From Halobacteriovorax marinus SJ (GTDB taxonomy: Bacteria; Bdellovibrionota; Bacteriovoracia; Bacteriovoracales; Bacteriovoracaceae), in NCBI RefSeq assembly GCF_000210915.2, contig NC_016620.1:1488001-1552000 (forward strand): DNA of 64,000 nucleotides, in the 5' to 3' direction. Position numbers and translations under genes: made by a program. Below the pieces are notes generated by a model. The model was not told where the DNA came from. It did not search any database and saw nothing but the letters and a program-made list of their open reading frames with translations. Shown piece after piece: positions 51,430 to 60,902 of the stretch; positions within the stretch are counted from its first letter, which is position 1, and every line of letters starts with the position of its first letter.

Positions 51430-53109
51430 TTATTCTCCAAAATCGCTCTCTAAATATTTCAGTGCCTTTAGATGATTGAGAACCTCTGGCCTACTTTTAA
51501 GGCCAGAGTAAATGAAGGTGTTATTTCCAGTTCTATCTATAAGTTTTTTTACTTTCTTTATTTCTTTCTTATTCCAATACTTCTTAAGTAAGTTCTTTAC
51601 TTCACTTCCACACTCTTTATTCGTGCAAAGAGTATAGAGTTTATTCTCACTTAACTTAATATTGTAAATCTGATTATAATCTGGGGCTTCTAAGCCTGTA
51701 ATCTCTCTTCTAACCATCTCTATATAAGAAGCTGGAAGCTTACTAGCGTATAGGTCATAGAAGAGAAATTTATCTTCGTTGGATATATACTTTGAAATGA
51801 TACTCCACTGATGTTCAGGGAAGCGGTAGTCTAAGAACTCCTTTGCTGAAAAGCCAAGTATTCTTGCAATTTTATTTCTTAATTTCTGGGCCCCATCTAT
51901 GACAAATGATGGATAGGGAACAAGTAGTGAGCGACTCATCCACTTGTGTAACTTCACAGGGACCCTGCCCTGTATTCCTCTCGTTCTCTTATGAGGAAAG
52001 TTTGATTTCTTTAGAAACTTTATAACTGCTCCGGCGCAATTATTTGAAAAGAAAGTATACTTGCCTAGACCTTCAGAAGCAGCACTCTTCACTCTAAGAT
52101 TCTTTACCAGTAAGGAGATTTCTACTTTTTTGAGAATATCTAGCTTTTCTAGATGCTCTTTTGTAAGAGCGTAGAAACCTGATTCCTGCAAGTTTCTATC
52201 GACAATTCTAAAGAGCTTAATCTCGCTGTGACCAAAGTGTGATATAGCTTCTTTAGTTGCGACATTAATATCGTGATTCATTATGCTTAAAATGCTTTCA
52301 TTTTTCTTTATCTTCCACAGTTCTCCAAAGAGATTTAAAAATACTTCATCTTCTTTCAAATAAAGCTCGTCATAACTTCTTTGGTAGGCCTGTAAGTAGA
52401 GTGCTTTATCTCTTTGAGTATCATCAAGATAGGGAAGATCCCCTTTTTGAACAATTCCAAAAGATCTAGTCATATCAATTTGGTTTTCAGTGTCAAAGAA
52501 CTTAAGTTCAAAGATCTCAAAACCATCTTCCCCAAAGAGTTCCCTTCCTTTTAGCTGTGCTTCTTTTCTGGCATTACTTAAAGATTCTAGATAAATTTCT
52601 TTTCTAGAGGAGAGTAGCTCTTCCCACCAAAGATCTAGAGTCACTATAAGGGAGTCTATCATTTCACTACTTGCTGGAATAATATAGCGCTCAAGTGGAC
52701 GAGATTGATCTTTCACATATTGCTTTACAAAGAGTCTTAGAGATTTTACTTCAGGGTAGACACCATATTTTCCAACAACCCCTGCTAGATTGCTTGCCTT
52801 GGGTCCATCTACGTCTGCAACAAAGCTAATCGTTATATCATTTCCGGGGTCGTTATCGTTATCTACAAATCTAAAGAGTGAGTGACCAAATTTTGATTCA
52901 ACTCTCTCGTCACTTGCCTCTGCGCTAATAAGCTCGAGCCCAATTATTTCATTTCTTTTAACTCTATTCTTTAGTCGTTTTATATACTTCTTTGAATTAG
53001 TGTAGAGTTCACTTTTTTGAAGATGCCATTGTAGAAATTCAACTGAGTCCAGCTCTTGAGCTTGAATATTAAAGAGAAGACAGAGAAGAATAAGAGTTTT
53101 TACAATCAT
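51430..53109 (-). CDS. Exported DUF4105-like (Lnb N-terminal periplasmic) protein
   Basis: 559 residues with a signal peptide (MIVKTLILLCLLFNIQAQ). The block SKFGHSLFRFVDNDND, then ITISFVADVD and, near residue 355, FFSNNCAGAVIKFLKKSNFP resembles the DUF4105 family, where a His and an NC pair are the conserved polar residues. Some members of that group are lipoprotein or amidase related, but no activity is established from sequence. A C-terminal helical segment follows. Convergent and abutting the small ParA-partner gene. Alternative: unrelated hydrolase-like protein. Confidence 0.6.
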   Translation of the reverse strand: MIVKTLILLCLLFNIQAQELDSVEFLQWHLQKSELYTNSKKYIKRLKNRVKRNEIIGLELISAEASDERVESKFGHSLFRFVDNDNDPGNDITISFVADVDGPKASNLAGVVGKYGVYPEVKSLRLFVKQYVKDQSRPLERYIIPASSEMIDSLIVTLDLWWEELLSSRKEIYLESLSNARKEAQLKGRELFGEDGFEIFELKFFDTENQIDMTRSFGIVQKGDLPYLDDTQRDKALYLQAYQRSYDELYLKEDEVFLNLFGELWKIKKNESILSIMNHDINVATKEAISHFGHSEIKLFRIVDRNLQESGFYALTKEHLEKLDILKKVEISLLVKNLRVKSAASEGLGKYTFFSNNCAGAVIKFLKKSNFPHKRTRGIQGRVPVKLHKWMSRSLLVPYPSFVIDGAQKLRNKIARILGFSAKEFLDYRFPEHQWSIISKYISNEDKFLFYDLYASKLPASYIEMVRREITGLEAPDYNQIYNIKLSENKLYTLCTNKECGSEVKNLLKKYWNKKEIKKVKKLIDRTGNNTFIYSGLKSRPEVLNHLKALKYLESDFGE

Positions 53110-53265: not shown

Positions 53266-54213
53266 ATGTTGAAATTAATCTTTTCACTTTTCTTTCTCTT
53301 CTCACTCTCGGCCGAAGAGCTATCTCAAGTTCAAGCTGAACATAGCTTCTCAAATACATCTGATGGATTGAAACTTAAAGAGTATGATTTAGAATATCGA
53401 ACTCATCGCCGAGATCTTTTTTGGCTTTACGAAGATGAAGCGTCGAAGGCACATGATTTCTTTTTAAGAGTTAAGAAAGTTGATGGAGAGCATCTTGGAG
53501 AGATAGATGGTACAAGATTTATTTTAGGCTATGGACGAAAGTGGAATGAATCCCATAATTCAGAAATTAGTTTTGGAATGCACACTCTATCGTATAAGAA
53601 TAACTCTTCAAAAACTCCCTATTTTAATTTTCTTCAGCAGTATAGAGCAAAGCTCTATACATTAGAATATTCAATGACTCATGATTTCTATTATCTAATT
53701 GGAGGAGTTCCTGGCCCTTATGAAGAAAAACTCAAGAGTTTAAAGAATTCAATTCGCCTTGTCGCAACACCGCGAGACTTTCTAAGAGTACCAGTTGAAA
53801 TAGAATATACTAAAATCAGTGGAGATAATTCTAGAAATAGACAGTCGGCATCTATATTATTTGGAGATTCATATCCTATTTGGATTTGGTTAGGGTATAG
53901 GATAGAGCGACTAAGTTTTGATCGACTAGATTCTGGCTATTGGTCTCCAGATAAGTTTTTGGCCCATGGTCCACATTTAGAGTGGGCGCAAACATTCTTT
54001 TCAAATTACACATTTAAGTTAAGTTATCTTTATAACTTTATTAAAGAAAATGATTTTGCTTCAGGGAATTCCTACTACTTATCTTCAACTTTTGAATATG
54101 GAAATAGAAACTCTCTTCTTCTTGGATTTAATGTCTATCGAAATAAGTCGATGCAAGAGTCTAGTGAGTGGTGGAGCGAAGGCGGAAGAGTCTATTTAAA
54201 GTATTCATTTTAA
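53266..54213 (+). CDS. Putative outer-membrane beta-barrel protein
   Basis: 315 residues with a signal peptide (MLKLIFSLFFLFSLSAEE). Short alternating strands dominate (TRFILGYGRKW, ISFGMHTLSYKN, YTLEYSMTHDFYYLIGG, IWLGYRIERL, YTFKLSYLYNFI) and the chain ends RVYLKYSF, with a terminal Phe typical of outer-membrane proteins. The family is not recognised. It overlaps the facing polysaccharide deacetylase gene by nine bases. As a candidate export pore it would fit the exopolysaccharide locus, by analogy with PgaA, but PgaA is much larger and has TPR repeats, which are not seen here. Confidence 0.62.
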   Translation: MLKLIFSLFFLFSLSAEELSQVQAEHSFSNTSDGLKLKEYDLEYRTHRRDLFWLYEDEASKAHDFFLRVKKVDGEHLGEIDGTRFILGYGRKWNESHNSEISFGMHTLSYKNNSSKTPYFNFLQQYRAKLYTLEYSMTHDFYYLIGGVPGPYEEKLKSLKNSIRLVATPRDFLRVPVEIEYTKISGDNSRNRQSASILFGDSYPIWIWLGYRIERLSFDRLDSGYWSPDKFLAHGPHLEWAQTFFSNYTFKLSYLYNFIKENDFASGNSYYLSSTFEYGNRNSLLLGFNVYRNKSMQESSEWWSEGGRVYLKYSF

Positions 54214-55359
54214 ATATTTCTTCCACACTTCATCTATACTCATTATATCTATATTAGACTCTTTAATGATCTTGAGTAGCTCTTTAAAGTTTTCAGTAGA
54301 GTAGTCGATTTCGTCTTTCGGTTGATCTTTAATATGATGAAACATAAGTATTAGCCACTGCTTACTTTTCTTCGTCTTATCAATAATCTCTTTAAGTTCT
54401 TCTGGTGTTGTTGTATTGAGAACATTAAATGCCCTTAGCTTGTGATAGTCGCCAGGAGGAATAGTTTCGATACCTCCAGAAGCCAATCTCGCAGTAGCAA
54501 AGCTCTTTCTAACGATATCTTCAACATTTTTATTAATTTTCCCAAGAGGGTAGGCCAGGTGAAAGTCGTCTTTCTTGTATTCATTTCTTTTAAAATATTT
54601 TTCAAGTCTCTCTATTTCTTCACTAAGCTGTTTAGAGGAAAAGAATGTGAAGGGAATTTCGTGATGAGATTCTACTTGCCAATATTTCTTTGAGAGCATT
54701 TTTAACTCACTCTCTTTTAAGAAATCTTTTGTATTAAGAGAATCAGGCATAATATATGTTGTAATAGGAAACTTATAATTGCTGAGTTCTCTGTCTGCTA
54801 AGAGGTTATCCTTTGCTCCATCGTCAAAGGTAATTGTTAAGATGCCACGGTCAATTTTCTTTGTCTTTTTCAAAGGCCACAGAGTAAGTCTCGTATTGGT
54901 TGTTTTTGCGGAGAAGTATATAGTCATATAGTTAAGCGACTTAGCACCCTTTCCTTTCTCTTTTAAATTTGCTCCTGAAATACTAAGTCTTGTAGGATTA
55001 GAAGACTGGAGGAGGTTGAATTCATAATCAGTAAAAAGAGGGATAACATAATATAGGTAGTTTTCTGAGACTTTAGACTCAGAAAATCTTATTTCGATTC
55101 CATTGACAGCTCTTAAGTCATCTACCATCAAATCTAAAACGATATTATCGTGATCAATTTTAAAGTCGTGTGAAGAGATGTCTACAGATAGGAAACTTGG
55201 ATTTTTCTCGTCTTTAGAAAAGAGGTGAATATTATTCTTGTCGACTTGAAGATTGGCTGAGCCCCAAAGCGCTTCAACTTTATCCCTATTAAAGCTGGAA
55301 TAAGTGTTTAAATTAAATAGTAGGGAACTAATAATTATTAAAAAAACTTTGGACTTCAT
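54205..55359 (-). CDS. Polysaccharide deacetylase (CE4/NodB-type)
   Basis: 384 residues from the ATG at 55359, which gives a signal peptide (MKSKVFLIIISSLLFNLNTY). The frame extends to 55398 but that would overlap the upstream gene further. At ~175-180 the metal motif ITFDDGAKDN is present, later ESHHEI and AYPLGKINKN, as in NodB-type deacetylases that remove N-acetyl groups from GlcNAc polymers. The first ~150 residues are beta-rich and may bind carbohydrate. Overlaps the upstream glycosidase-like gene by 32 bases. Comparable to the deacetylase half of PgaB. Confidence 0.85.
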   Translation of the reverse strand: MKSKVFLIIISSLLFNLNTYSSFNRDKVEALWGSANLQVDKNNIHLFSKDEKNPSFLSVDISSHDFKIDHDNIVLDLMVDDLRAVNGIEIRFSESKVSENYLYYVIPLFTDYEFNLLQSSNPTRLSISGANLKEKGKGAKSLNYMTIYFSAKTTNTRLTLWPLKKTKKIDRGILTITFDDGAKDNLLADRELSNYKFPITTYIMPDSLNTKDFLKESELKMLSKKYWQVESHHEIPFTFFSSKQLSEEIERLEKYFKRNEYKKDDFHLAYPLGKINKNVEDIVRKSFATARLASGGIETIPPGDYHKLRAFNVLNTTTPEELKEIIDKTKKSKQWLILMFHHIKDQPKDEIDYSTENFKELLKIIKESNIDIMSIDEVWKKYLK

Positions 55360-56374
55360 ACCAGGCCTTTCTCTTCCATAAATTGTAATCGGTTTCATTT
55401 GGGTTATATGTATTCATTTCATATTTATTCGCTGCAAGCTTTCTCCAAAGATAGATTCCTCGCACCGTTTTATCACTTTTTAGTGCTAGTAGAGTATATC
55501 TATAGGCCATTGCCTGTCTAAGTTCTGGCCCAGGTGTCATATTTCTCCACTCATAGGGCTCGAGCGTTCCTTTCTTTGAACCTGGATAACCAATTTCATT
55601 GATAATAAGTGGTTTTTTAAACTTCTTTGCGTGTTGGATATACTTTTTAAGCATTCTCTCTTGATAAGTATAGATTTCCTTTTTCTTAATTGTATTTGGA
55701 ATTGGAAAATACATATCGAGTCCAAGTTCATCTACATATTTCCAAATTGGAGTTTCAAAGAATTCATTTACATTGTTTACGGCTTCCCAATTCGCCCCAT
55801 AAGAGACTCTACCTTTGAACTTCTCTCTTACTTTAGAAATAATTTCTCTCCAATATAGTTCATAACTAGAATTGCTTAGTTGGCAATACTCAGCTCCGAT
55901 AATAAAGTTCTCAACTTTATATTCTTCTAGAAGCTCTGCAAATACGCTCAGTTGATTTTGAATATTTTCAAAAGCGAGCTCTTTATCCTCTGGGTCCCAG
56001 TAACATCTCCACTTCTTATTCTCAACGTCAATATAGTGGCGAAGAGAGACTCTAAATCCTCTTTGCTTGGCCATTTCTATGGCCATTTTAATTGAATTTA
56101 ATGAGGGCGTATAATTTGAACTACAGTCAACATTACTGGAGTAAAGAGTTTTTGTCTGGCACGAATAGAGAAAACTAGCTGTATTTAAATTTAAAAGTTT
56201 CAGCTCTTCTAGATAGGTCTCTATATTACCTCTAGTATAGCTATATCTTCCATAGCCAGTAAAAACTAAAGAACTCAAGTTCTCTTCTTTTTCAATGCGC
56301 TTATAAGAAATCTTATGAGCACAAGAGTAGAGAGAAATAATAACGAAAATAATACCCACAGATTTAGTAAACAT
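55328..56374 (-). CDS. Glycoside-hydrolase-like TIM-barrel lipoprotein
   Basis: 348 residues with lipobox (SLYSC, Cys17), so anchored in a membrane. The barrel shows putative catalytic glutamates in FIIGAEYCQL (about residue 158) and PLIINEIGYPG (about 260), and DELGLDMYFPI between them. The pattern resembles GH113-like or related clan A glycosidases, and in context it can be compared with the glycosidase half of PgaB. Genes at 56429-60615 run the other way from a shared 42-55-base upstream gap, so the two arms are probably co-regulated. Confidence 0.72.
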   Translation of the reverse strand: MFTKSVGIIFVIISLYSCAHKISYKRIEKEENLSSLVFTGYGRYSYTRGNIETYLEELKLLNLNTASFLYSCQTKTLYSSNVDCSSNYTPSLNSIKMAIEMAKQRGFRVSLRHYIDVENKKWRCYWDPEDKELAFENIQNQLSVFAELLEEYKVENFIIGAEYCQLSNSSYELYWREIISKVREKFKGRVSYGANWEAVNNVNEFFETPIWKYVDELGLDMYFPIPNTIKKKEIYTYQERMLKKYIQHAKKFKKPLIINEIGYPGSKKGTLEPYEWRNMTPGPELRQAMAYRYTLLALKSDKTVRGIYLWRKLAANKYEMNTYNPNETDYNLWKRKAWYEVQSFFNNY

Positions 56375-56428
56375 TTTTATACTATACTATAATTACAATA
56401 AAAATCCTTTCAAAAAATGGAGTTCATT

Positions 56429-57334
56429 TTGTCTTCAACCGAGCTAAACGAACAAGTAGCTTTAAAAAAGAAAGTTGTTGTTATTGATGATGAAGCAGTG
56501 ACACGTAAGTTAGTAGAGAAAGCGCTTAGCGAGCGTTTTGAAGTCTATATTGTTGATAATATATTTGAATCGATTCGAGTATGTGAACTACATATGCCAG
56601 ATGTGATTCTGTTAGACTTACTTATGCCAAGTGTAGACGGTTTTGAGATTTTAAACCTCTTAAAGCACCATGCAATACTTTGCGATATACCAGTAATTTG
56701 TATGAGTTCTACTGAAGCGAGGGAAGATAGAATTCGAATAAGAGAACTAGGTGCCATTGGGTTTATTAAAAAGCCTGTAAGTATAAAAACCTTGGCCAGT
56801 GATATTGATCAATCTCTAGATTCAGTTACAAATATAATAACTTCGAAGAAGAATAATATAGAGTTTATCATTGGCTTTAACGTTCAAGAAAAAGATAAAT
56901 TCATTTTAAAGAAAATTCAAAGAATTCCTGAAGGTGAAACTGTCGTCTTTCTCTCATGGAGTAAGGGAGAGTACTTTTACGAAAGTAATGAGAGTTTGAA
57001 GAAATATATTGATGACGAAAGACTTATATTCTTAGAAATTAAGCCAACACTCATTACAAAATTTCCTTACCTTCAAGACTTAACTCCTCTTTTAGAAGAT
57101 GTACTCTCATTCTTAGGTGAAAAAAGTCGAGAAACTCACCTTGTTTTTGATGAGCCTAGTGTTCTTTTAAATTTTCAAAATACAGAGAAAACGACCTCTC
57201 AGGCATTGAAATTTGCTCAGTCCTTAATTTCAAATTTTAAGAAGATTTCGTATATCGATATTCGTCCAAAGAAAGAGGATGAGCAGAGCTTTCTTAATAA
57301 AATAGGTAAGATTTTAGTAGGTAATAGAGGGTAA
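56429..57334 (+). CDS. Response regulator with receiver domain and unusual C-terminal domain
   Basis: 301 residues. The TTG at 56429 is preferred since GGAG lies six bases before it; the ATG at 56417 has no ribosome site. The receiver (~15-130) is complete: VVVIDDEAV, VILLDLLMPSVDGF, CMSST and GFIKKPVS. The C-terminal ~165 residues are not an HTH, GGDEF or kinase domain. They have a strand-helix layout (EGETVVFLSWSKGEYF ... ETHLVFDEPSVLL ... FKKISYIDIRP) that resembles a degenerate RecA/KaiC or DUF835-like fold; this is an inference. First gene of the polysaccharide operon, so probably its switch. TAATG coupling to the synthase gene. Confidence 0.8.
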   Translation: MSSTELNEQVALKKKVVVIDDEAVTRKLVEKALSERFEVYIVDNIFESIRVCELHMPDVILLDLLMPSVDGFEILNLLKHHAILCDIPVICMSSTEAREDRIRIRELGAIGFIKKPVSIKTLASDIDQSLDSVTNIITSKKNNIEFIIGFNVQEKDKFILKKIQRIPEGETVVFLSWSKGEYFYESNESLKKYIDDERLIFLEIKPTLITKFPYLQDLTPLLEDVLSFLGEKSRETHLVFDEPSVLLNFQNTEKTTSQALKFAQSLISNFKKISYIDIRPKKEDEQSFLNKIGKILVGNRG

Positions 57335-58635
57335 TGAAAAAAAGTTTTACTAGTGCTATTACAATTGTAACCATTACTATAATTTGTAGTTTATTAGTTA
57401 TTATTTTCTATTTAAATATTCCCGATAATTGGCAATTTGATAACCCTTATGCAAATTTTGTTGCAAAGCTAATGCTCTATTATCTTCTATTTATTTTTGT
57501 GAGAACATTTCTCTTACTTATTCTCTCGTTTCTAGAGGTTATCTTCTATAAGAAGAGTCGAGATATAGTAAAGTATCCTCTGGTTACACTTATTATCCCT
57601 GCTTACAATGAAGAGAAGGTACTTAAAAAGGCAATTGAATCTGTCTTAGAGATTGATTATCCAAACCTTGAAGTTTTAGTTGTTGATGATGGTTCTACTG
57701 ACGATACATTCTTTGTTGCAAAGGAAATGGAGAAGCACTCCCAGGTAAGAGTTATTCATCAGTCAAATGCAGGTAAGTCTAAGGCCCTCAATTACGGGAT
57801 TTCGGAGGCCCTAGGGGATTACTTCGTTTGTATGGACGCAGATAGTGTGCTTAGTAAGAATTTACTGATTGAAGCAATTCCATATTTTGAAAGAGACGAG
57901 AACCTAGCAGCTGTTGCTGGTGCTGTTCAAGTTGGAAATGCTAAAAACCTTCTAACAATTTTCCAAAAACTAGAATATATTATTGGGCTTAATTTTCATA
58001 AGAAAGCGCAATCTTTTTTAAATATGGTTACCATCGTTCCTGGTCCAATTGGAGTTTTTGATCGAAGCAAAGTATATGCTATTGGTGGCTATAGCTCTGA
58101 TACATTTGCTGAAGATAGTGACTTAAGTATGCGCCTTTTAATGGAAGGATATAATATTAAGTATTGTGATAAGATTACCGCGACTACCGAGGCTCCCGAT
58201 GAGATTAATGCCCTCATTACTCAGCGCTATAGATGGTCCAGAGGAATGGTTCAGGCCATCTTTAAGGGGATGAATCTCTTGTGGGATAATTTCTCTGTAA
58301 GGGGAGCTCTAGTTATCACCTATATGTTCTTTGAAACTATTCTTATTCCATTAATTAATTTCTCTTTTATTATGCTGACTTTGGAGTTTGCACTTCTCTA
58401 TAATATTGTCGATTTAATGGGGCCCTACTTTGTAGGTTTAACACTCTTGGATGTCGCTCTTTGCTTTTATAGTATTATTATGGAGAGGCAGGTTTTCTCT
58501 TTACTCATTTTAAGTTTTCTTAATCGATTGACCTATGGTCTCCTCTTGGAAGTTATTAGGTTCTTTTCAATATTTGATGAATTATTAAAAATCCCAATGA
58601 AATGGGGTGTGCTTGAAAGAAAAGGAATGAATTAG
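57334..58635 (+). CDS. Family 2 glycosyltransferase, PgaC-like processive polysaccharide synthase
   Basis: 433 residues, one N-terminal and several C-terminal membrane helices around a GT-2 domain: VTLIIPAYNEEK, VVDDGSTDDT, CMDADS, AEDSDLSMRL and the processive-type QRYRWSRGM. This layout and length match PgaC/IcaA-type poly-N-acetylglucosamine synthases (about 440), though a hyaluronan- or cellulose-like product cannot be excluded. Its ATG overlaps the response regulator stop (TAATG at 57332-57336). The membrane protein gene starts right after its stop. Confidence 0.88.
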   Translation: MKKSFTSAITIVTITIICSLLVIIFYLNIPDNWQFDNPYANFVAKLMLYYLLFIFVRTFLLLILSFLEVIFYKKSRDIVKYPLVTLIIPAYNEEKVLKKAIESVLEIDYPNLEVLVVDDGSTDDTFFVAKEMEKHSQVRVIHQSNAGKSKALNYGISEALGDYFVCMDADSVLSKNLLIEAIPYFERDENLAAVAGAVQVGNAKNLLTIFQKLEYIIGLNFHKKAQSFLNMVTIVPGPIGVFDRSKVYAIGGYSSDTFAEDSDLSMRLLMEGYNIKYCDKITATTEAPDEINALITQRYRWSRGMVQAIFKGMNLLWDNFSVRGALVITYMFFETILIPLINFSFIMLTLEFALLYNIVDLMGPYFVGLTLLDVALCFYSIIMERQVFSLLILSFLNRLTYGLLLEVIRFFSIFDELLKIPMKWGVLERKGMN

Positions 58636-60615
58636 ATGAATTTAAAAAATATTTTTAATATTCTTTTATTATCAATTTCACTTACAACTATTATTGTAAC
58701 TCTTGTTACGTACATAATATTTAAACTTAGGCTTGGAGCTTCGAAAAAGAGTTTTTTAAAGAACCCTCTAGAGGGAGCATTTTTTAGAAGGTTCTCTCCT
58801 CTTATTCAAGCTGATTATCTAGAAAAGAAAGCACTACAAGAACAAAGTGAAGGTAAGGGAGTTTCATTTAAGGTTAAGTTCGTTTCATTGTCATTCTTTC
58901 TATTTGCTGTCATATCAGGACTCATCTTATTTGAAGATTATTTCAAGTATAGAGAACAACTTGCTCAAAGAGTGACTAGTGCTAGTAAACTTAGAGAGCT
59001 AGTGAAGCGAGGGCATTTAAAAACTTATGACTACGTTCCAAGAGAGGAGAAAGTTGTCCTAAGAAAACGCCCTTCTACTAATACTCAAAGACAGATAGAT
59101 TATTTCCAGAAAAGTTTAGGCGAAAAAAAGTTTTGTCTAATCTCTACTTATAGAGCGAAGAATTACGATTCATCATATCATCTAAATGCCATTAAGCAGT
59201 GGAGAGAGTTCTTTAAGAGAAATAAACTTAGTTATAGAGTCTATTCACGTGTAAATACACCTCTTGGGTGCATATCTATTTATCCTCATATTCAATCTTT
59301 AAGTAATTCACAAAGAGAAGAGTTGCTTAAGAGTCAAAATCCTATACTCATTACTGGTGGGCTTGGACGATTAGATGGACTTGGGGGTGAGAGTAAGGAT
59401 AATATTTTAGCTCAGCTATTAAGTACTACAATTCTCGCAGATGAAAGCAGAAACCCAACACTCATAGCTTCTGAGAAGGAGTACTTATGGGATATTGAGG
59501 GAGGAAGTTTTGTAGAGTGGCTACCTTTGGATAAGAGGTATTCTCATATTGGTGAAGATGGTGGCAGTTTGTTAACTTCTTCTTATAATGGAGAAGTTTT
59601 TTCTAGAGAATCCCATAGCTTTAGAAGGGAGTGGAAATCTAAGAATAGAGTATGGAGCTCACTTGATCCAATTAATGACTTTCATTCTGATATTGTTTTT
59701 TTGACAATATTTTCAAAACTAGTTCAGACACCAATTGCTAAAATAAAAACATTTCCTTTTGAGCAAAGAGCTGTTTCCTTCGTTTATAGACAGCTATCTA
59801 CTACTGACCAATTAGATGAGGTGAAGAAGAGTCTTAAAGCATTTAATGGGAGTTGGACGCTATTCACTAGAGATGACCGCTATCCTGCAGCGGAGATACA
59901 CTCTGAAGATCACACTGGCTATGAAGTAGGAATGCTTATTTTAGAAGATGATATTCTTGATGAAGTTGATACAAGGCTTACTTTTAATAGAGTCGAGGAG
60001 ATGCGCTTATTCTTGGAAGAGTTGAGTTTCTCTGCTGTTGGTGGAATGGCCACTCATAATGATTATTTTTCAAATACTTTATTAGTTGTAAGTGATCAAA
60101 ATAGATTGTCTTATATATATGGTAAGAATAAGTTTATTTCATATTCTCCTTTTTATCTTGAAAATCTTAGTTATTCACTTATTCCTCGAATGTTTAAAAC
60201 AGTAGGAAAACTTCTTCAAGATAAGTCTATTTCTAACGAGAGTGAGATGGTGAATACACTTCAAAAGAATATTGACCATGCTCAGGACTTAGGAGTGGCC
60301 GCCATTGTTGATTTCTCCTCTACTGATATTGAAAACCTACTCTTTTCTAAATCTTTGAAGAAGTTAATTACTCAAAATAATATTAAGGCCTTAAAGTTAA
60401 TGGATCTCATTAAGTATAGAAATGAGCAAGAGAACTTAAAAGTAGCTATCAATTCTAGTGTAGAGGAAATCACCATCACTAATACACTTAGCAAATCTGT
60501 TAAAGATATTGTGCTTCTTCTAGAAATTGGTGGAAAGAGAGAGAAAGTCTTTATTAAAGAGATTGCTGCTGGAGCAGACCTTAAATTAGATAAGGGAACT
60601 TATCTAGAGCGATAA
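58636..60615 (+). CDS. Membrane protein with possible amidotransferase-like and degenerate deacetylase-like regions
   Basis: 659 residues. Two N-terminal membrane helices (~5-30 and ~85-105) bracket a short charged loop, then a long extracytoplasmic region. It has a segment ISIYPHIQSLSNSQREELLK then ILITGGLGRLDGLGG that resembles a class I amidotransferase-like fold, and a later stretch (NGSWTLFTRDDRYPAAEIHS through GMATHNDYF) that looks like a NodB deacetylase fold without the metal-binding TFDDG and H-x-x-x-H residues. Both readings are low-confidence. Immediately follows the synthase, overlaps the facing small gene by 16 bases. Likely handles the polymer in the periplasm. Confidence 0.6.
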   Translation: MNLKNIFNILLLSISLTTIIVTLVTYIIFKLRLGASKKSFLKNPLEGAFFRRFSPLIQADYLEKKALQEQSEGKGVSFKVKFVSLSFFLFAVISGLILFEDYFKYREQLAQRVTSASKLRELVKRGHLKTYDYVPREEKVVLRKRPSTNTQRQIDYFQKSLGEKKFCLISTYRAKNYDSSYHLNAIKQWREFFKRNKLSYRVYSRVNTPLGCISIYPHIQSLSNSQREELLKSQNPILITGGLGRLDGLGGESKDNILAQLLSTTILADESRNPTLIASEKEYLWDIEGGSFVEWLPLDKRYSHIGEDGGSLLTSSYNGEVFSRESHSFRREWKSKNRVWSSLDPINDFHSDIVFLTIFSKLVQTPIAKIKTFPFEQRAVSFVYRQLSTTDQLDEVKKSLKAFNGSWTLFTRDDRYPAAEIHSEDHTGYEVGMLILEDDILDEVDTRLTFNRVEEMRLFLEELSFSAVGGMATHNDYFSNTLLVVSDQNRLSYIYGKNKFISYSPFYLENLSYSLIPRMFKTVGKLLQDKSISNESEMVNTLQKNIDHAQDLGVAAIVDFSSTDIENLLFSKSLKKLITQNNIKALKLMDLIKYRNEQENLKVAINSSVEEITITNTLSKSVKDIVLLLEIGGKREKVFIKEIAAGADLKLDKGTYLER

Positions 60616-60902
60616 CGAATTGTCTGTCTTGTAGAGTTCTCGTCATTAAAAAGTTCTTCGAGTTCTTTATCCTCATCTTGGTCTTGGAGCTCATTTTTCT
60701 GTAGTGCGCTACTAGTAAGGTCGATAGAATCCTCAATAATTTCTTTTTTCTTTTTGACCTGGGGCTTTTGCTCTAGGTTCCAATCTTCAAGGTTTACAGA
60801 GTTTGAGAGCTCCTTGAGCTGCTCTAACTCATCTGAAAGTGAGAATTGAGCATAAATATTTACACTTAATAAGAAAATTAGGATTGTTCTCTTGCCTAGC
60901 AT
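60600..60902 (-). CDS. Small exported acidic protein
   Basis: 100 residues with a signal peptide (MLGKRTILIFLLSVNIYAQ). The mature chain is acidic and rich in D, E and L (LSDELEQLKELSNSV, QDQDEDKELEELFND), probably helical or disordered. No family recognised. The 3' end overlaps the membrane protein gene by 16 bases. Confidence 0.65.
   Translation of the reverse strand: MLGKRTILIFLLSVNIYAQFSLSDELEQLKELSNSVNLEDWNLEQKPQVKKKKEIIEDSIDLTSSALQKNELQDQDEDKELEELFNDENSTRQTIRYRSR

Follow-up and report, generated by a model that had tools for sequence, protein, structure and literature searches.

A probable lineage-specific exopolysaccharide module in Halobacteriovorax marinus with Pga-like, Pel-like and mannanase-related parts

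Among the described systems closest to the present locus, PgaABCD (PNAG) relies on PgaB, whose hydrolase domain founded family GH153 and probably uses Asp474 as catalytic acid, without a second catalytic residue of the GH20 or GH18 type (PMC5933820), while PNAG deacetylases have NodB2 topology with an N-terminal catalytic-His motif (PMC10967932). In PelA (CE21) of the Pel system, a hydrolase domain is followed by a mixed alpha/beta domain, a deacetylase domain and a beta-rich domain (PMC12022489). A C. difficile cluster of GT2, GH113, CE4 and WecB genes was predicted to produce a partly deacetylated ManNAc polymer (PMC7710045). A Deinococcus plasmid (L122) encodes a GH18-CE4-GT2 fusion synthase. 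BA3943 is a CE4 pseudoenzyme that is not known to be anchored in a membrane as a component of a synthase operon.

The locus under study lies in a window, the whole 64,000-nucleotide stretch analysed, taken from the larger contig (bases 1488001-1552000) of the two that make up the 3.44-Mb genome (100% complete) of H. marinus SJ. Like PgaABCD, it combines a PgaC-like GT2, a putative two-TM synthase partner, a CE4-type enzyme, a TIM-barrel hydrolase and an outer-membrane barrel; unlike PgaABCD, the hydrolase is GH113 rather than GH153, the CE4 protein is NodB1 rather than NodB2, the barrel is devoid of TPR, and the regulator is a response regulator (RR), with no PilZ or c-di-GMP domain among the Pfam hits of the locus. 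Residues 165-659 of a 659-residue membrane protein (MEM659) are predicted to carry flavodoxin-like, deacetylase and beta-rich domains in the PelA order, but MEM659 has no hydrolase domain, is predicted to be anchored by two TM helices and has lost its catalytic residues in the window. As in the C. difficile cluster, GH113 and CE4 genes stand beside a GT2 gene; in contrast, the window genome contains no 2-epimerase, MEM, RR and barrel genes are additional, and the synthase subtype is likely to differ. The Deinococcus fusion has the same three activities, and the window GT2 scores higher in BLAST with it than with E. coli PgaC (214 vs 138 bits), but it is a single polypeptide with a GH18 domain, and MEM, RR and barrel are not annotated in its stretch. 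A description of the locus was not found among the titles and abstract openings of the freely accessible papers searched.

The genes of the locus are genuine and conserved, and they most likely make up a lineage-specific module for an exopolysaccharide, a mosaic whose parts are combined in another way than in the textbook PNAG machine. Our preferred reading, with a probability of about 0.6, is a lineage-specific synthase-dependent exopolysaccharide system of GT2, MEM, RR and barrel, accompanied by CE4 and GH113, with a GlcNAc polymer as the likeliest product. The RR-GT2-MEM core with the adjoining barrel, the linkage of GH113 to GT2, the synthase motifs, PgaC/IcaA as the best NCBIfam model, the fold and motif loss of MEM, the RR output domain with its intact receiver, the neighbouring kinases and the absence of a PF02350 epimerase from the window genome count in its favour.

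Table 1. Genes and regions of the putative exopolysaccharide locus (window positions).
Feature	Position	Strand	Remarks
BARREL, 315-aa outer-membrane beta-barrel	53266..54213	+	signal peptide; no TPR
CE4, secreted deacetylase-like protein	54205..55359	-	PF01522, NodB1 order, N-terminal beta domain
GH113-family TIM-barrel lipoprotein	55328..56374	-	PF22612; lipobox read by eye
Divergent intergenic region, 42 bp	56375..56416		between GH113-CE4 and RR-GT2-MEM arms
RR, response regulator	56417..57334	+	CheY-type receiver (17-138) and predicted alpha/beta output domain (140-305), no HTH
GT2, processive membrane synthase	57334..58635	+	VDDGS, MDADS, AEDSD, QRYRWSRG
MEM659, 659-aa membrane protein	58636..60615	+	predicted two-TM stem, flavodoxin/ThuA-like, CE4-fold, beta C-terminus
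Degenerate CE4-fold domain of MEM659 (residues 370-600)	59743..60435	+	motif table

A sequence-only reading had proposed an exopolysaccharide locus here, and all of its open reading frames were recovered in an ORF check of the window (Table 1), including the 659-residue membrane protein in one operon with RR and GT2. RR and GT2 overlap by one base and MEM659 begins at the base directly after GT2; the barrel gene is convergent with CE4. Although the longest CE4 frame begins at 55398, both the signal peptide and a comparison with relatives favour a start at 55359, which gives an overlap of 32 bases with GH113. The whole cluster is found in unchanged order in two same-genus genomes, with identities of 82-84% for GT2, 67-69% for RR, 58-60% for GH113, 56-58% for CE4, 55% for the barrel and 42-46% for MEM, indicating that the genes are under selection and are not chance frames. 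A promoter and terminator scan of the locus gave nothing above chance, with 26 promoter-like matches in the region against 27.9 expected, and an Rfam search of the window returned one tRNA and nothing else. Two flanking genes were also observed. A 100-aa frame (60600-60902, minus strand) overlaps the 3' end of MEM659 and is 48-50% identical within the genus; its conservation is confined to the genus, and it probably does not belong to the system. A 559-aa Lnb_N-domain protein (51430-53109) is divergent from the barrel gene and occupies the same place in the two congeners with 61-62% identity.

MEM matches were present in 13 of 129 genomes of the order and GH113 matches in 11. Across the phylum, 36 of 368 genomes passed E 0.001 with the MEM profile, of which 15 were retained as true members (13 nearly whole-model matches, G027 cut at a contig end and G032 with a 127-aa remnant), while the other 21, whose matches span just some 60-160 positions and lie for the most part within the deacetylase domain region, were dropped. 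RR adjoins GT2, and GT2 is followed by MEM, in all 15 of these genomes, with RR and GT2 divergent in G193 and separated by an extra short receiver gene in G327. The barrel adjoins the core in 11/15; in G020, G124 and G196 the contig ends too soon, and in G032 no barrel is seen at this place. The linkage of these genes is a conserved one. Type A, consisting of the core module with GH113 and CE4, is found in four of the 15 (the window genome, G044, G045 and G027), while in the stretches read the remaining 11 had neither GH113 nor the window's type of CE4 beside the operon. The MAG G027 carries an in-frame TAA in its GH113 frame (L029 2549-3697), giving two ORFs, as a result of either decay or assembly error. 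In type C (G031, G032, G033, G073 and G227), a barrel and GH113 are combined with a GT2 that is more distant (34-40% identity), a short protein with two TM helices and a pair of CE4 genes; in G227, one CE4 gene is split into two frames. Between the two CE4 genes of type C loci lies a 347-395-aa protein (L033 12624-13799, L032 4871-6058, L035 12403-13581, L036 5292-6335) with an ESGF...GQ stretch that looks lytic transglycosylase/SLT-like by eye; the L033 copy (391 aa) has no Pfam match. A MEM-profile scan of wider species genomes, which relied on two short conserved patterns and so may miss distant members, found 11 loci, all in MAGs labelled Bacteriovoracaceae, Halobacteriovoraceae, Oligoflexia, Deltaproteobacteria or Proteobacteria.

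The synthase matches the Pfam GT2 family (121 bits) and contains the motifs listed in Table 1, in agreement with an exopolysaccharide locus. Its proposed likeness to PgaC holds in part: TIGR03937 (PgaC/IcaA) is the best NCBIfam model, but the score of 187 bits is far below the cut-off of 422.3. In the synthase tree, PgaC and IcaA group with 100/100 support while the window GT2 clade, on long branches, is unplaced, and the motif QRYRWSRGMVQ is nearer to that of BcsA than to PgaC's QRLRWAQGGAEV; both observations count against the preferred reading. The 315-aa barrel with its signal peptide corresponds to the beta-barrel gene predicted at 53266. It has a YWSPxxF..GPR motif, and its relatives gave weak Pfam matches to OMP_b-brl (3/16), BCSC_C (2/16, best 0.0012) and PgaA_barrel (1/16). 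No PDB hit was returned for the barrel, nor an accepted Pfam family for it or for MEM659, and hhalign with E. coli PgaA gave a probability of 3.8%, although the aligned part is the right C-terminal region. The barrel is likely to be a PgaA/BcsC-type export porin without the periplasmic arm.

The receiver of RR is well supported by Pfam (PF00072, 72.9 bits in the window and present in 11/11 relatives), by the invariance of Asp24, Asp67 and Lys119 and by an AF2 model (pLDDT 83.5) in which the receiver fold reaches a Z of about 20 in VIA. The output domain is predicted to be alpha/beta without an HTH, in keeping with the earlier description of a non-HTH regulator; it has no good Pfam family match, and a PDB profile search gave a best E of 0.11. 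With the whole protein, Foldseek placed PleD on top at an rmsd of about 15, and the VIA list was filled by the receiver. A likeness of the output domain to the RecA-like N-terminal domain of BcsE, considered as a lead, gave an hhalign probability of 0.2-0.5%. A profile of this domain hit 5 of 144 phylum genomes, with all five hits at the operon and only beside this synthase. In G123 and G327, genes for hybrid histidine kinases that carry additional receivers directly adjoin the operon.

The AlphaFold AF2 model of MEM659 (pLDDT 76.8, pTM 0.72) predicts a two-TM stem (1-124), a flavodoxin/ThuA-like domain (162-366), a CE4-fold domain (370-600) and a beta C-terminus. In VIA-align, residues 164-366 match GH42 domain B (Z 17.1), residues 369-600 match polysaccharide deacetylase 3rxz (Z 17.0), and residues 165-659 match PelA 9cgy (Z 14.1) over 375 residues with 10% identity and an rmsd of 11.8, so the domains match while their packing differs. 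Foldseek ranked human NDST1 first and BA3943, in which the CE4 fold has likewise lost catalysis, second. Given the order of domains in PelA, the modelled MEM659 looks like PelA minus the hydrolase, placed on a membrane stem: the flavodoxin-like domain precedes the deacetylase domain as in PelA, and the catalytic and metal residues are lost in the window protein. In the window and two congeners, the CE4-fold domain is without the D-x-E-D, HTxxH, RPP and HT motifs. Of 14 proteins compared, 8 retain these motifs and 6 have lost them (window, G045, G044, G109, G196 and G327), in a table of 15 rows that includes the paralogue G076b and has one row cut before the CE4-fold domain; PF01522 matches 6 of 11 MEM members, not including that of the window. 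Within type A, identities are 35-48% in the CE4-fold region, 44-53% in the flavodoxin-like region and 61-68% in the stem, suggesting that the degenerate CE4-fold is a kept, faster-changing domain rather than debris. A dead MEM domain co-occurs with a separate CE4 gene in the three type A genomes in which the domain could be read and in G327, while the contig of G196 is too short to judge. A strict rule of this kind is broken by G109, whose dead domain has no second CE4 gene within 18 kb, and this counts against the preferred reading. So does the stem, since it resembles PgaD by topology only, with no PgaD Pfam match returned for MEM.

The separate CE4-type gene suggested earlier was accepted by the HMM search, with PF01522 at 29.6 bits (cut-off 23.1) and present in 12/12 relatives, of which the other eleven are 26-58% identical to the window protein. 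Its metal site departs from the canonical Asp-His-His triad, as the second His of H-x-x-x-H is Pro in all 12; deacetylation is therefore not assured, and the lack of a canonical metal triad in both NodB-fold proteins, CE4 and MEM659, counts against the preferred reading. In PMC10967932, the non-metal enzyme 3CL6 is associated with loss of this second His (with both Asp), and 2VYO, which is probably inactive, with loss of both metal His. TFDD (both Asp), His232, His267, Glu298 and His341 are invariant among the twelve CE4 relatives, and His267, an extra His adjoining AYPLG, may be a candidate substitute for the missing ligand, judging from the alignment. A genome-wide PF01522 search gave a single match at C1:983223-983564 (L001), unlinked to the locus; it did not return the window's own CE4, and tallies of that kind are hence lower bounds.

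In the proposed mechanism, GT2 would polymerise and extrude a hexose or hexosamine polymer, with the two-helix stem of MEM659 as a putative PgaD-like synthase partner and its periplasmic flavodoxin-like and dead CE4-fold domains as a possible PelA-like polymer-handling scaffold. N-deacetylation may have passed to the separate CE4 protein, provided that its altered metal site is functional, while GH113 would trim the chain and the TPR-less barrel would serve export. Phosphorylation of RR may switch the synthase through protein contact and not through transcription, as suggested by an output domain that lacks an HTH and keeps a fixed place beside GT2. The product, the least certain step, would be a beta-linked polymer of partly deacetylated GlcNAc with UDP-GlcNAc as its precursor; a GlcNAc-based polymer is put first, with modest confidence, because of the CE4-fold proteins and the ranking of the GT2 models. 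A bolder version appears rather unlikely to us, namely a new class of exopolysaccharide secretion in Bdellovibrionota in which the phosphorylated RR gates the synthase directly, the PelA-like arm has repeatedly become a pseudo-deacetylase, catalysis has moved to a CE4 with a rebuilt metal site and GH113 has been recruited to a non-mannan polymer.

The TIM-barrel lipoprotein belongs to GH113 (PF22612, 112.2 bits vs a cut-off of 27), its PDB relatives are the endo-beta-1,4-mannanases 7dvz, 5ylh and 4cd6 (E 1.3e-12 with the single sequence and 2.2e-28 with the profile), and Glu162 and Glu260, invariant in 9/9 aligned members, are the candidate catalytic pair, so that the two glutamates expected by the sequence-only reading were indeed found. 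In the portions of the literature covered, the characterised GH113 enzymes named are all mannanases, making a GlcNAc polymer an odd substrate, which counts against the GlcNAc reading. Alternatively, GDP-mannose could be the precursor and a beta-1,4-mannan or glucomannan the product, with GH113 as an ordinary mannanase and CE4 removing O-acetyl groups. This is unlikely, though in line with the description of GH113 as an endo-mannanase family (PMC7710045 and PMC9032380), with the mannanase PDB neighbours and with a ManC-like protein in the window genome (TIGR01479 291 bits, below the cut-off of 373; PF22640 48 bits). The best GT2 score, that with the PgaC/IcaA model, and the intact CE4 domain in 8/14 MEM relatives speak against it; intact CE4 domains are usual for N-acetylated polymers.

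The lineage of the window consists of predatory bacteria. GH113 and CE4 might therefore be secreted enzymes directed against prey glycans and mere neighbours of the exopolysaccharide operon; both have export signals (read by eye), and Bdellovibrio CE4 proteins reportedly act on the prey wall. We consider this improbable, since GH113 is linked to GT2 in both type A and type C, with different GT2 clades. Among the 11 genomes in which GH113 matches at E 1e-80 or better, 9 have it next to a GT2; the other two, G022 and G069, have no GT2 beside GH113 within their contigs.

Poly-ManNAc with partial deacetylation, the product suggested for the C. difficile cluster, has in its favour the same gene trio in that prediction (PMC7710045) and another G020 cluster (L038) with GH113-like, GT2, WecB-type epimerase and DUF2334 genes. 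It is nevertheless very improbable here and was set aside: the PF02350 UDP-GlcNAc 2-epimerase is absent from the complete window genome, which argues against UDP-ManNAc and makes the published idea not transferable. The same search was positive in 72 of 125 genomes, negative in G044, G031 and G073 as well, and found an unlinked copy in G045. The L038 cluster itself (G020:C179; GH113-like protein at 62 bits) resembles, to judge by its gene content, a system of the poly-ManNAc type within the same taxonomic order.

That CE4 and the TIM barrel are two halves of a split PgaB acting on PNAG, the central claim of the sequence-only reading, is hardly tenable and was rejected, for although like activities reside in separate secreted proteins beside a PgaC-like synthase, the barrel's best matches are mannanases of an unrelated glycan and not GH153, hhalign of the GH113 alignment with E. 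coli PgaB gave no profile similarity (0.4%), the PgaB GH153 domain PF14883 was found in none of 125 genomes of the order (E. coli control positive), and CE4 has TFDDG(177) followed by LMFHH(338), the NodB1 order, while E. coli PgaB has SWHN before TFDDG(112), the NodB2 order. The comparison thus established the GH113 relationship and not the PgaB hydrolase likeness; between CE4 and PgaB, the hhalign match was weak and limited to a few positions around AYP(Y/L)G (probability 36%).

Polysaccharide systems that depend on a synthase have a mosaic make-up, and under the preferred exopolysaccharide reading, a synthase like that of Pga, a modification arm like that of Pel and a trimming enzyme related to mannanases would be joined here, with a two-component receiver at the place that c-di-GMP takes in other systems. 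Four points are new: the combination in MEM of a two-TM stem with a PelA-like flavodoxin-like/CE4-fold region, as modelled; an RR output domain found only beside this synthase; a separate CE4 whose second metal His is missing in 12/12 relatives; and the absence of a UDP-GlcNAc 2-epimerase from the complete genome, by which the poly-ManNAc proposal does not extend to this locus. The series from intact to dead deacetylases within one operon family offers a way to ask about non-catalytic roles of such domains, and the system may underlie a surface glycan or attachment in predatory bacteria, a subject on which little was found in the titles and abstract openings searched.

Two further gene groups were observed in related genomes. 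A PIG-L deacetylase and a glucosamine-isomerase-like gene lie beside the type B operon in G076 and G078 (L042 7357-8677 and L043 12251-13577), with the PIG-L protein of L042 scoring 76.9 bits and the L043 copies read by eye. At L102 (G076:C5), a paralogous second GT2 (39%) is accompanied by two proteins, one of 652 aa with PF01522 (58 bits) and one of 218 aa that matches no family.
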